28,109 bases of DNA from a virus: IMG/VR virus record IMGVR_UViG_3300047444_000058, positions 1 through 28,109 of that record. One strand, given 5' to 3'. The first letter of the stretch is position 1, and each line of letters starts with the position of its first letter. The notes beneath the pieces were generated by a model that saw nothing but the letters and a program-made list of their open reading frames with translations, was not told the DNA's origin and ran no database searches. Position numbers and translations under genes: made by a program. This document shows, in pieces, positions 15,714-27,977 of this stretch.

Positions 15714-15789
15714 TGGCTCCAGAGGTAGGGATCGAACCTACGACCAATTGATTAACAGTCAACTGCTACTACCGCTGAGCTACTCTGGA
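15714..15789 (-). tRNA. tRNA-Asn (anticodon GTT)
   Basis: The minus strand folds into a canonical cloverleaf of 76 nt including an encoded CCA. The acceptor stem is TCCAGAG with CTCTGGA, G is the discriminator base, and CCA follows. The anticodon stem is GTTGA/TCAAT-like around the loop CTGTTAA, giving anticodon GTT. The T arm is GTAGG-TTCGATC-CCTAC. It is in the same orientation as the late operon and lies between the AT-hook gene and the scaffold gene, so it would be cut from the late transcript. It may raise Asn-tRNA supply for the Asn-rich structural proteins. Confidence 0.95.
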
Positions 15790-16298: not shown

Positions 16299-18142
16299 AG
16301 CATTGCCTTAGCTTGCTGACGCGTCTGAAGGGCTTGCATGCGTCCTACTGCGTTACTGGTAGGAGGTGCGGAAGCAGGGGCACCAGCAGGCGCTTGGCCT
16401 GTTGCAGCCATATTCTGCTCAGTGCCAAGATTCTCCTGTGCACCATTGATGAGACGTTGCGTTTCCTGTTGCTCGAATACAGCCTTGTTCGGAGAGAACA
16501 GACTGAATCGGGTAAGACCAAGAATGTCTTCCACCAATCGTGATAGCGCGATACCTGACGTATGAGGTGCCAGATAACTCTGCATAGGCCCGTTAAAGAC
16601 TCCCTGAAGATTCTGGAGTAGTTGGGCTTGGGCAGCGAAGTGACGGGCACCAATAGGCCGTAGAATGCCGTTAGCGGTAATGTCATCACGTGTGAGCTTC
16701 AGGAACTGCTGAACACCAAGATCGTTGTCCATCACACGAACAACGTCTTCACCATCCAGATTGCGTCGTGCTGTCTCCAGCATCGAGTTAAGGAGAGGTT
16801 CCAGCATTTCGATTTCGAACGTATTGATCTTCTCTTGGAAGATACGACCAGCAGCGTTCTCAAGGGTCTGTACTTCGAATGCAGTCTTCTCACCCGGTGT
16901 ACGGATACCCATTGCTTCACGAGGGGCACCAGCATACTGTTCCATGCGCTGTTCAAGTGCCTGAACCTGACTCTCAGCCTGAAGTACCCATTGGACATTC
17001 TTGGCAAGCTCTGTGACTGAGCCTTCAGCATCAATGTGGATTTCTTCTCCGGGAGCGTAAGTGAATTCCTCCACTTCACCAGCAATCACCAATGGGGGCA
17101 GGACAGCCAAATCCATTGCGTCTGCTTTTAGATTCTCCAGATGGTCAATGCGATATTGCATGCCAACCAGATTATCCAGCGGTCCCATAGCCCACAGATT
17201 ATCAGGACGGACACGCCAGCCTACGTGGTAGATAGGAGCCGTACCAAACCAAGTGGGAATGGCTATATCCTCAATGGTCCACATACGATCAATGATGGTG
17301 ATCTTCCGGCCTGCCTTTAGCTCGCCCGTATTGTTGTCGTACAGGTCTCCGTAGAACGTCAATACCTCTACATACGACTGTCCTAGATAATCGGTGTAAG
17401 AGCCGAATCCATCAATCTGAAAGCCTTCTGCCTTGTCCCATTGCTCGATGCCGTAGGTAGCCGTGTAGTTAACCAGCTTCTTGCGTTTCTCAAGCGAGTC
17501 TGCAAGCTGTGCATTCTCCGGTTCATTCTCTGACTTCCAGACTAGTTCACCAAGGTTAACAACACTTCGTACAATCTTCCAAGAGTCGGCAAATGAAGCA
17601 GCGAGTGGATTAAAGACAATATCAAGAGGGCTAATTCGACGCGCCTTGGGTCCGACATATTGAATCACCTTATTACCGTTTTCATCTTCCCGGTAGCTGT
17701 TTTCAAAGTCGGTAGTAGCAAACGCATTACCGTAATCAATGTAGTCAAGCAAAAGCTTGGTCATTTCAGTACGAAAGTGACTCTCACGAGTCTTGTTGCT
17801 CATATACGATTCAATGGCTACTCGTTTGGCCTTGGTAGCATCATCCTGTGTGTAAGCTTCCCATCGTAGCCAATCGTCATTGGGGAACAGTGCACTCAGA
17901 TAGTTTGAATGCAGGTTGTCCCGAATCTGACAGAGCTTGGGAAGGGTAGTGGAGTTCTTCCAAGGAAGTGTGCCATTAGAGGTAGTGCGAGTGTCTGTTG
18001 CAAAAATGTAATTGCGAAGCTCTTTCCATTCCTGTGTTTTAGGATTACGATTCATGTAGTGAGTAATCCATTGGTTCGCAATGAATTTACTCGCACTGTC
18101 CTGTCCGAACATTGCTGGTACGTCTAGCGGTTTATTTGACAT
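16295..18142 (-). CDS. Portal (head-to-tail connector) protein
   Basis: A 615-aa protein lying between TerL and the head genes, as in most podoviruses. It is somewhat longer than T7 gp8 (536 aa). The N-terminus has the layout typical of podoviral portals: a helix with WKELRNYIFATDTR, then NLHSNYLSALFPNDDWLRWE. The middle contains SPLDIVFNPLAASF and DNLVGMQYRIDHLENLKADAMDL. Residues about 430-480 are helical (the stem/clip region), and a helical C-terminal barrel is followed by an Ala/Pro/Gln-rich tail. It would form the dodecameric ring through which DNA enters and leaves. It starts 2 nt after the TerL stop. Confidence 0.93.
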   Translation of the reverse strand: MSNKPLDVPAMFGQDSASKFIANQWITHYMNRNPKTQEWKELRNYIFATDTRTTSNGTLPWKNSTTLPKLCQIRDNLHSNYLSALFPNDDWLRWEAYTQDDATKAKRVAIESYMSNKTRESHFRTEMTKLLLDYIDYGNAFATTDFENSYREDENGNKVIQYVGPKARRISPLDIVFNPLAASFADSWKIVRSVVNLGELVWKSENEPENAQLADSLEKRKKLVNYTATYGIEQWDKAEGFQIDGFGSYTDYLGQSYVEVLTFYGDLYDNNTGELKAGRKITIIDRMWTIEDIAIPTWFGTAPIYHVGWRVRPDNLWAMGPLDNLVGMQYRIDHLENLKADAMDLAVLPPLVIAGEVEEFTYAPGEEIHIDAEGSVTELAKNVQWVLQAESQVQALEQRMEQYAGAPREAMGIRTPGEKTAFEVQTLENAAGRIFQEKINTFEIEMLEPLLNSMLETARRNLDGEDVVRVMDNDLGVQQFLKLTRDDITANGILRPIGARHFAAQAQLLQNLQGVFNGPMQSYLAPHTSGIALSRLVEDILGLTRFSLFSPNKAVFEQQETQRLINGAQENLGTEQNMAATGQAPAGAPASAPPTSNAVGRMQALQTRQQAKAML

Positions 18143-26190: not shown

Positions 26191-26202
26191 TGTACGCAAT
26201 GC

Positions 26203-26263: not shown

Positions 26264-26611
26264 ATGGCTGATTCATTGAAGGCACTACTGAAGCAACAGG
26301 AAGAACTAGCAGAAAAGATTGAAGCCTTGCGAGCGGAGAGCAAGGGCAAAGGGATTGAGCAAATCAAAACCATCATGGATGAGCTAGGCATTACCGCCAG
26401 TGATCTAGGCTTCTATGATGTTGACCATCTGCCACAAGGCAAGACAGGCCCGCGTACATTCAAACAACGCAAGCCAATGGCACCGCCAGAACCTAAATAC
26501 CGTGACCCTGCTACAGGCAACACATGGAGTGGGCGCGGCAAGCCGCCACGCTGGCTACAAGGGGACCGCGACGCGTTCCTAATAGGTAGAGAGCAGGCTA
26601 AAGCAGCGTAA
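26264..26611 (+). CDS. H-NS family nucleoid protein (phage-encoded)
   Basis: A 115-aa protein from ATG 26264 (MADSLKALLKQQEELAEKIEAL), with GGGAG nine nt upstream; a longer frame to 26150 has no such signal. Residues 1-35 form the coiled-coil oligomerisation helix. Residues about 55-77 are a linker. Residues 78-98, KYRDPATGNTWSGRGKPPRW, are the H-NS DNA-binding domain with the GRGKPP AT-hook-like loop that reads the minor groove. The layout and length match the short H-NS of betaproteobacteria. A phage copy could silence host defence or redirect host H-NS by mixed oligomers. Own terminator follows. Confidence 0.93.
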   Translation: MADSLKALLKQQEELAEKIEALRAESKGKGIEQIKTIMDELGITASDLGFYDVDHLPQGKTGPRTFKQRKPMAPPEPKYRDPATGNTWSGRGKPPRWLQGDRDAFLIGREQAKAA

Positions 26612-26679: not shown

Positions 26680-26767
26680 TAAGCATGGCTCACAGCTATC
26701 ATCGATTGTCAATGTGTAAAGCTTACCTGTCCGGGTTTACTAGATGTAACAGGTGTGCAACAAAGTG

Positions 26768-26797
26768 TTGACAACCCCTCATATCGTATGGTGTAAT
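26768..26797 (+). promoter_or_regulatory. Promoter P2
   Basis: TTGACA (26768-26773), 18-nt spacer, TGTAAT (26792-26797). ACAAAGTG (26760-26767) abuts the -35 box. Confidence 0.6.
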
Positions 26798-26845
26798 TCA
26801 TTCCGTCGTAAGCAGCAACGAAACGAAGTGCCAAGTAGATTGTGC

Positions 26846-26875
26846 TTGACAAGGTGTTACAAAGTGTGCGATACT
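26846..26875 (+). promoter_or_regulatory. Promoter P3
   Basis: TTGACA (26846-26851), 18-nt spacer, GATACT (26870-26875). The spacer holds GTTACAAAGTG (26856-26866), the P1/P4 element in reverse orientation. Confidence 0.65.
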
Positions 26876-26977
26876 GCACACACTGAATGAAGAACGAGAA
26901 CTGCGGAACGCGAGAGCGTACGATGTGGTAAGGGATTCAGACAGTAAGCAAACACTGTGCCAGTCGTAACAAAACGC

Positions 26978-27006
26978 TTGACACTTTGTAACGTAAGGTT
27001 TACAAT
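26978..27006 (+). promoter_or_regulatory. Promoter P4
   Basis: TTGACA (26978-26983), 17-nt spacer, TACAAT (27001-27006): the best of the cluster. CACTTTGTAAC at 26982-26992 is identical to P1. Confidence 0.8.
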
Positions 27007-27204
27007 GCTTCACATGATGTAACGGCAACAAGATGTAACGGCGTAAGGTAGAAGTTACCCGCTCCGCACTATGTAATAGATTGTGTGCGAGTGTTTCTAG
27101 ATGTAACGGGTGATAATTTATCTTATGTTATATCCAAGCAGTCCGAATTAACTGTTCGGTTAGCGAGGATGCCTAACGATTCATAGCGAACGTTAGGGCG
27201 CATT

Positions 27205-27216
27205 GCTCTTTAACAA
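27205..27216 (+). promoter_or_regulatory. boxA-like antitermination element 1 (GCTCTTTAACAA)
   Basis: It matches the rRNA-operon boxA core GCTCTTTAACAA, bound by NusB/NusE(S10). A 7-bp hairpin (27172-27178 with 27191-27197) lies just upstream, reminiscent of boxB-boxA order. Confidence 0.65.
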
Positions 27217-27459
27217 TACGGATGCATGAACCATCAGTAGATGGAACCCGCCAACACTAGCCCAGTAGGTTAGTGCGGTTGTGTCGTGCTGGAGAAATGA
27301 GATAGGCGCTAGTCGCTGAAAAGGGGATACCCCTGCTTGTGGATATCAGTCTCCAATCGCGCTCAAGCTGGAGTGTGTTGTGTGTAGGTCCGGGGGAAGT
27401 CAATGGATGGGGGAGGGTAGGGCTATGCTCTGCCCCTAATTACAGTGCATCTTGTGTTG

Positions 27460-27471
27460 GTTCTTTAACAA
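27460..27471 (+). promoter_or_regulatory. boxA-like element 2 (GTTCTTTAACAA)
   Basis: GTTCTTTAACAA, 255 nt after element 1 by the TCTTTAAC core (27462-27469). Confidence 0.6.
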
Positions 27472-27716
27472 TCTATTCGTCAGTTCTTTGTGCGCCAGTT
27501 GAAAGGACACATTGTAGCAAAATGTTTCGTGGCTTGACATTCCCTTTGAAGCGAGACTAGCAGACCCTCATATAGTGTAACGCTATCATCATTTTTCTAC
27601 GATTGTGTCAGGCAAGCAAAGGTAATACGCTGCTGTAAAGCATCCGTTCTGACGTGCTAGGTAAAGACTAGATTGAGCGTCATTCACTGGACTAAGCATT
27701 GAGTGGCGCTTGATAT

Positions 27717-27726
27717 GTTCTTTAAC
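27717..27726 (+). promoter_or_regulatory. boxA-like element 3 (TTCTTTAAC core)
   Basis: The core TCTTTAAC at 27719-27726 directly abuts the 5' end of the tRNA-like element and is 257 nt after element 2. Confidence 0.5.
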
Positions 27727-27805
27727 GCGGGTTCTAAATGGATAGTGCGTGTGGCTGATTACCACATAATCTACGCAGTGTGTTCGAGTCACACAACCCG
27801 CTCCA
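27727..27805 (+). tRNA. tRNA-like element, anticodon loop would read GAT (Ile), atypical
   Basis: Seven-bp acceptor GCGGGTT/AACCCGC, then T and an encoded CCA. T arm GTGTG-TTCGAGT-CACAC is canonical. A 5-bp anticodon hairpin TGTGG-CTGATTA-CCACA would give anticodon GAT, though position 37 is T instead of a purine. The D region (16 nt, CTAAATGGATAGTGCG) lacks a normal D stem and the variable region is 11 nt. It may be a degenerate tRNA, a tRNA mimic or an RNA processing signal. A functional isoleucine tRNA is doubtful. Confidence 0.5.
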
Positions 27806-27821
27806 ATTTCTAGGAGGTTGT

Positions 27822-27977
27822 ATGTCTGCAAATCAACGTTCTAATCTTCGCATTGCTCAGGCCAATCATGCTCGCAATATTCGTGACAATTTCAAGTGCT
27901 GTGAACGTGCTTACAACTACTTGCGCAAACGTGGTTGGTCTGAAGAAGGCGCGGCGTTTGTTGTGTTTGGTGACTGA
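27822..27977 (+). CDS. Small basic hypothetical protein
   Basis: A 51-aa protein (MSANQRSNLRIAQANHARNIRDNF, then CCERAYNYLRKRGWSEEGAAFVVFGD). AGGAGG lies four nt before the ATG, the best ribosome site in the early region. It is helical, Arg/Asn-rich, and may bind nucleic acid. It follows the tRNA-like element by 16 nt. No family recognised. Confidence 0.75.
   Translation: MSANQRSNLRIAQANHARNIRDNFKCCERAYNYLRKRGWSEEGAAFVVFGD

Follow-up and report, generated by a model that had tools for sequence, protein, structure and literature searches.

A boxA-flanked, helix-closed leader, putatively of the rrn antitermination type, before the early genes of Zobellviridae-type phages

In the published model of the E. 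coli rRNA (rrn) operons, boxA keeps the 5' strand of the leader-trailer helix near RNA polymerase (PMC10250234), and the published boxA consensus is GYTCTTTAANA (PMC5725501). The put RNA is reported to prevent pausing and termination on its own, with no need of additional factors (PMC9378689). boxA, rrnTAC, and nut sites are known; a phage leader composed of boxA-flanked, helix-closed modules is apparently undescribed in Rfam and in the open-access literature, in which no description of such a leader was found. In the leader analyzed here, the boxA cores, the module layout, the covarying helices, an acceptor/T-arm element, and the position before the first early gene are observed directly. We interpret it, with moderate confidence, as a cis-acting rrn-type processive-antitermination element of the phage early operon, for which transcription, NusB/S10 binding, antitermination, and RNase P cutting are inferred.

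The stretch of DNA analyzed (the window) is an entire IMG/VR virus record of 28,109 bases and is a fragment of a Zobellviridae-type podovirus. The head and tail proteins are encoded by minus-strand genes, and the major capsid protein is 71% and 69% identical to those of Salinivibrio phage CW02 and Klebsiella phage Klyazma, respectively, both of which belong to Zobellviridae. The boxA leader lies on the plus strand between an H-NS-like gene (positions 26264 to 26611) and the first early gene (27822 to 27977, plus strand, 51 amino acids), which has a ribosome-binding site, AGGAGG, at 27812 and no match in PHROG for the stretch tried. An open reading frame homologous to this gene follows the leader in the relatives G003, G001, and L279; no similarity between the leader DNA and named phages was found. 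Elsewhere in the window, a minus-strand tRNA-Asn(GTT) gene (15714 to 15789) is located inside the structural gene block, and a gene for the small subunit of ribonucleotide reductase (2 to 712) is truncated by the left end of the record. The motif GCTATCAY, whose function is unknown, occurs at 26202, 26694, and 27581. It is found both within and between genes in some relatives and is enriched with a bias toward the early-gene strand (16 versus 5 copies in G030 and 18 versus 3 in G021, with approximately 2 per strand expected; also in the G017 genome).

A T7-type RNA polymerase was found in none of 30 records (13 IMG/VR relatives and 17 named phages, which share CW02 and represent 29 distinct phages). 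Other polymerase types were outside this search, and the positive control, T7, was recovered with E = 1e-109. For this reason, the early genes are probably read by the host polymerase. Two clear sigma70-type promoters precede the leader on the plus strand, at 26846 to 26875 (TTGACA, 18 nt, GATACT; 10/12 in the consensus scan; activity only predicted) and at 26978 to 27006 (TTGACA, 17 nt, TACAAT; 11/12), and a transcription start near 27013 is inferred from the second. The earlier note on this DNA had counted three promoters reading into the leader; the consensus scan did not bear out the third. TGTAAC/GTTACA repeats are located within and around both promoters (26737 to 27112), and a perfect 12-nt inverted pair (26856 to 26867 and 26981 to 26992) lies inside the two promoter spacers; the TGTAAC/GTTACA elements are possible operator sites.

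The sequence GCTCTTTAACAA begins at 27205 on the plus strand, and the TCTTTAAC cores begin at 27207, 27462, and 27719 on the same strand, i.e., at spacings of 255 and 257 nt, which agrees with the claim of three boxA cores approximately 255 nt apart. The window contains seven copies of TCTTTAAC, compared with 0.76 expected from shuffled sequences, and three of the seven are within 0.5 kb at the leader. boxA1 (GCTCTTTAACAAT, 27205 to 27217), of which TCTTTAACAAT is invariant in an alignment of nine relatives, fits the published consensus (PMC5725501), and the presence of an rRNA-consensus boxA downstream of a promoter satisfies one criterion for an rrn-type antitermination leader. Over 13 nt, boxA2 (GTTCTTTAACAAT, 27460 to 27472) exactly matches the boxA that follows 16S in Aquabacterium and Roseateles. 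The closest cellular relatives of the H-NS-like protein (37 to 40% identical) are mostly from Burkholderiales, the order of these two genera, which is a hint at the host; the assignment of the host to Burkholderiales is a guess. boxA3 (GTTCTTTAAC, 27717 to 27726) is present only in the window and G003 and is decayed in G001 and L279, and one-base changes of boxA are found in several relatives (TCATTAAC and CCTTTAAC). The hairpins that had been said to precede the first copy are present in the predicted fold at 27143 to 27159 and, just 5' of boxA1, at 27172 to 27197; the latter also appears in the centroid structure.

The spacing of the boxA copies was rejected as stand-alone evidence; a scan for paired boxA copies across all viral contigs returned 102 stretches versus 86 for the reversed pattern, mostly in coding sequence. 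The frequency of TTCTTTAAC alone in 48 relatives was barely above that of the reversed control. A scan for AATTACAG plus boxA2 gave 60 stretches, most of them by chance, and the profile retrieved records that were already in the set. Unrelated leaders and coding matches were among the results of a scan for boxA plus GTGTCGYG. The case rests on the clustering of boxA in non-coding DNA together with the covarying helices.

A search with the capsid protein gave 80 loci, of which the long records were retrieved. The order of elements in the module is boxA1, a 5' strand, an interior of approximately 200 nt, usually AATTACA or a near variant, a 3' strand, and the second boxA. This layout is found in the close relatives G003, G001, and L219/L279 and, with very different sequence, in G030, L203, G021, G012, G024, G023, G019, G018, G016, G027, G028, G013, and G017; Erwinia phage Pecta has at least the first boxA and the closing helix P1. 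Of the 13 records of at least 47 kb that were examined, 11 carry the module, CW02 (G045) has three boxA copies without the inner motifs, and no module was found in G005; shorter contigs carry the module too. L219 and L279 are parts of one contig of 51,962 bases, which has slightly diverged copies of the leader at both ends and contains either diverged terminal repeats or a mixed assembly. The blocks without variation in the nine-relative alignment, whose columns are 56% identical on average, are the two boxA cores, GTGTCG, CTCC, and AATT.CA. The boxA cores recur at the same place in divergent relatives, which retain most but not all of the blocks; GTGTCGY is missing from G018, G016, G013, and Pecta.

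As mentioned above, the first module is closed by P1, whose 5' strand (GATGCA, 27221 to 27226) pairs with the 3' strand (TGCATC, 27446 to 27451) and which covaries among relatives. The conserved AATTACA just 5' of the latter strand (27438 to 27444) is AATTGCA in some relatives and is absent in G017. The P1 strands are GATATCAAG/CTTGGTATC in G030, AGAATAGCA/TGCTATTCT in G021, and TTGCAACAAA/TTTGTTGCAA in G016. RNAalifold on the nine relatives gave a weak, mixed structure in which P1 was missed; therefore, an alignment-free, arm-by-arm permutation test was used, in which the duplex energy of each phage's own 5' and 3' arms was compared with that of its 5' arm and the 3' arms of other phages. For 14 representatives, the matched sum was -223.3 kcal/mol, whereas the mean of 20,000 re-pairings was -139.6 and no re-pairing was below -185.8 (0/20,000). 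The idea of P1 was formed by eye on the sequences tested, and the arms in the test were taken at fixed distances from boxA; the representatives are related to one another, and the permutation counts are not exact probabilities. A position scan placed the best P1 partner at boxA2 for 8 of the 17 phages scanned; in some others, the boxA2 position was close to the best. P1 of the window is short, and other stretches of the window pair equally well or better; hence, the window alone is insufficient to prove P1. Pairing between the flank that immediately follows one boxA and the flank that immediately precedes the next, a further criterion for an rrn-type leader, is therefore met across the relatives and weak in the window alone. 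The folding energy of the leader in the window is unremarkable (z = -1.5); the case for RNA structure is comparative. On this comparative basis, a structured leader RNA is well supported. Neither the module-closing helices nor the phage family had been recognized in the earlier note, whose proposal of a miniature rrn-type leader or a large structured non-coding RNA is strengthened in that the boxA cores and the stems are kept even as the sequences of the stems diverge. Loss of the cores and stems from related phages, which would have refuted it, is not what is seen; both are retained, and the stems covary.

Inside module 1, the loop strand GTGTCGTG (27281 to 27288) lies between helices P3 and P3b, with GTGTCG.G invariant in the nine-relative alignment, and CTCC (27351 to 27354), also conserved, forms the opposite strand of the same internal loop. 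The matched energies of the two flanking helices were -107.9 versus -62.9 and -106.2 versus -50.4 (each 0/20,000). In two other phage leaders, L367 (approximately position 1437) and L373, boxA is followed by GTGTCGTG; in L367, a CACGACAC located 5' of the first gene could be its pairing partner, which makes this a different leader, of boxA plus a long stem. The GUGUCGY/CUCC loop is the most conserved part of the leader after boxA, as if it contacted something, and the modules might act directly on RNA polymerase in the manner of the HK022 put RNA, with boxA playing a minor part. We regard this as very unlikely, given that boxA is conserved and duplicated although put has no need of it, that GTGTCG is missing from four relatives, and that the modules are far larger than the put hairpins.

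Many predicted folds also contain a small hairpin after the 5' strand of P1, 20 to 30 nt 3' of boxA1 (CCATC-AGTA-GATGG in the window), at which a phage N-like protein could act together with boxA, as in lambda and the Nus-dependent mEp phages. There is a precedent in non-lambdoid coliphages, for which an N-like protein and three nut sites have been published (PMC11893012). However, neither the stem nor the loop of this hairpin has a sequence shared among relatives (each phage could encode its own N), the large closed modules have no role in a nut scheme, and no N-like gene was identified, albeit without a systematic search and in a record that ends before the further early genes. A nut-type mechanism is considered unlikely.

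A second helix-closed module follows boxA2, with its 3' strand mostly 130 to 170 nt downstream, and the group test supports its helix (-247.1 versus -200.3, sd 9.8, 0/20,000). For the window, the closing strands proposed by eye are CGTCAG (27478 to 27483) and CTGACG (27649 to 27654), whose equivalents at the same places are GATGG/CCATC in G001 and GTCGG/CCGAC in L279; another duplex is stronger in the window than the proposed one. A hairpin before boxA3 (GAGCGTCATTCA ... TGAGTGGCGCTT, 27675 to 27711) has compensatory changes in L279 (GAGCGTCTTTTAA ... TTAAAAGACGCTTG).

A coding explanation of the region was rejected. Many indels separate the close relatives, most of them of a length not divisible by 3, and the long open stretches are absent from more distant relatives, which upholds the earlier statement that no gene explains the DNA. 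The covariance search that had been suggested, carried out with the Rfam 15 models, placed the leader in no family at the gathering score and gave only implausible eukaryotic matches with E above 2.

Seven isolated phages also have boxA in non-coding DNA close to sigma70-type promoters, namely Pseudomonas phages PA11 and O4, Klebsiella phages Klyazma and VR7901, Vibrio phages Saratov-12 and 1.253.O, and Salinivibrio phage CW02; as far as visible, the full module is not seen in any of them. Seven other loci have two boxA copies approximately 230 to 250 nt apart in non-coding DNA, and in three of them (L274, L249, and L208) each boxA is closely downstream of a sigma70-type promoter. Promoter-plus-boxA units may be common in phages. 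The boxA leader of Klyazma is inside the annotated terminal repeat, and together with the leader copies at both ends of the L219/L279 contig, this would suit an element acting at the DNA level, such as a replication origin, a packaging site, or a feature of terminal repeats. Such an element is highly improbable in our view; the pairing of arms approximately 200 nt apart, the orientation toward the early genes, and the boundaries at boxA fit RNA, and boxA follows a sigma70-type promoter in CW02, Saratov-12, and 1.253.O.

The tRNA-like element at 27727 to 27805 (plus strand) follows boxA3 with no gap, as had been noted from the first reading. It has the acceptor stem GCGGGTT/AACCCGC, the T arm GTGTG-TTCGAGT-CACAC, an encoded UCCA end, and an anticodon-type arm with GAT, and it lacks a D arm. 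ARAGORN assigned it to tRNA-Ile(GAT), whereas the Rfam tRNA model gave no match there; with no D arm folding and the negative Rfam result, the criterion of a complete cloverleaf for a tRNA gene is unmet. A filter that requires an acceptor stem of 7 bp, a T arm whose loop is of the T type, and CCA retrieved one element in each of 4 of 16 leaders (those of the window, G003, G001, and G030), in every case immediately 5' of the first gene's ribosome-binding site, and in 0.5 Mb of background from relatives it gave six matches, all resembling ordinary tRNA genes. The acceptor and T arm were recovered by ViennaRNA for the elements of the window and G030; another fold was preferred for G001. Between the window and G001, the elements show no sequence relationship although their flanks are homologous, which suggests that the element is swapped or fast evolving with its acceptor/T-arm/CCA core kept. 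In this comparison (L176, minus strand, approximately 16499 to 16585, against the window at 27727 to 27805), the two elements occupy the same place, as would an exchanged cassette. Small model substrates are recognized by RNase P through such an acceptor/T-arm/CCA core. Dependence on a 3' RCCA has been described (PMC12710915), and the UCCA of the window is less favorable than RCCA. boxA3 and the tRNA-like element are not general across the phage family.

In the lineages that have it, the tRNA-like end would free the leader as a separate RNA, and with two to three boxA copies per transcript, the freed leader could act in trans as a decoy that titrates NusB-S10 and hampers host rRNA synthesis. 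This is quite unlikely, we believe; a decoy would need neither the position at the head of the early operon nor boxA exactly at the module borders, and the tRNA-like end is missing from most relatives.

On the rrn-type antitermination interpretation, host sigma70 RNA polymerase would initiate near 27013, and boxA1, on emerging, would be bound by host NusB-S10 (with SuhB, NusA, and NusG) and tethered to the polymerase. The strand after boxA1 would be held while the next approximately 200 nt of RNA form a folded loop, and would then pair with its partner 5' of boxA2, which closes module 1; boxA2 would reload the complex for module 2. The polymerase thus modified may traverse the early operon in a termination-resistant and Rho-resistant state, with the folded modules keeping the tethered strands ordered and hiding the untranslated leader from Rho. 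In some lineages, including that of the window, RNase P may cut at the tRNA-like acceptor/T-arm/CCA end, which would separate the leader from the mRNA. The boxA-boxC spacing reported for Enterobacteriaceae is 18 to 19 nt; the shorter distance from boxA1 to the helix in the phage leader stands against this interpretation. A related possibility, which is rather unlikely, is that the modules mimic rRNA transcription and processing, as stable RNAs that fold with the aid of the rrn antitermination complex of the host. The modules would then be excised by RNase III, acting at the closing helices, and by RNase P, acting at the tRNA-like end, and might act in trans on ribosome assembly or Nus factors in addition to acting in cis; both processing and trans action are inferred.

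If the rrn-type antitermination interpretation is true, a widespread podovirus family has a phage antitermination leader built on the rRNA plan rather than the N/nut plan. This would suggest how phages without an identified T7-type RNA polymerase keep the host enzyme going along the whole of a long early operon. The leader would also be a small natural system in which to address an unresolved question of rRNA biology, namely whether a complex tethered at boxA directs distant strands to pair during synthesis of the intervening RNA.

Among the known systems, the 5' untranslated region of suhB also has an rRNA-type boxA in a messenger leader outside rRNA operons (PMC5725501); there, boxA brings about repression of suhB, whereas the phage leader has repeated boxA copies with structured modules at the head of an operon. 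The HK022 put RNA is likewise a folded leader RNA of a phage with which early transcription begins, but it is described as Nus independent, and boxA is central and conserved in the leader presented here. Lambda nut with N, and its counterparts in the mEp phages (PMC11893012), also places boxA in a phage early transcript, as does this phage, which apparently uses the host polymerase; unlike nut, the leader has no conserved boxB loop sequence, no N has been identified, and large helix-closed modules lie between the boxA copies. The bacterial rrn leader and 16S-23S spacer are alike in having rRNA-type boxA before and after a structured RNA with pairing flanks, upstream promoters, a tRNA or tRNA-like element in the same transcript, and a hairpin just 5' of boxA1. 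The phage leader differs in that the enclosed RNA is approximately 200 nt long and is something other than rRNA (the window has no match to an rRNA model of Rfam, so that the criterion of enclosing ribosomal RNA is unmet), two modules stand in series, the boxA-to-helix spacing is shorter, a coding operon lies downstream, and the leader is carried by a phage. The phage module fits the rrn layout in the arrangement of the published model (PMC10250234) on a much smaller scale. The leader would thus act in the manner of an rrn leader without being one, and its order of boxA, stem, RNA, stem, boxA, and tRNA-like element is that of an rRNA operon in miniature.
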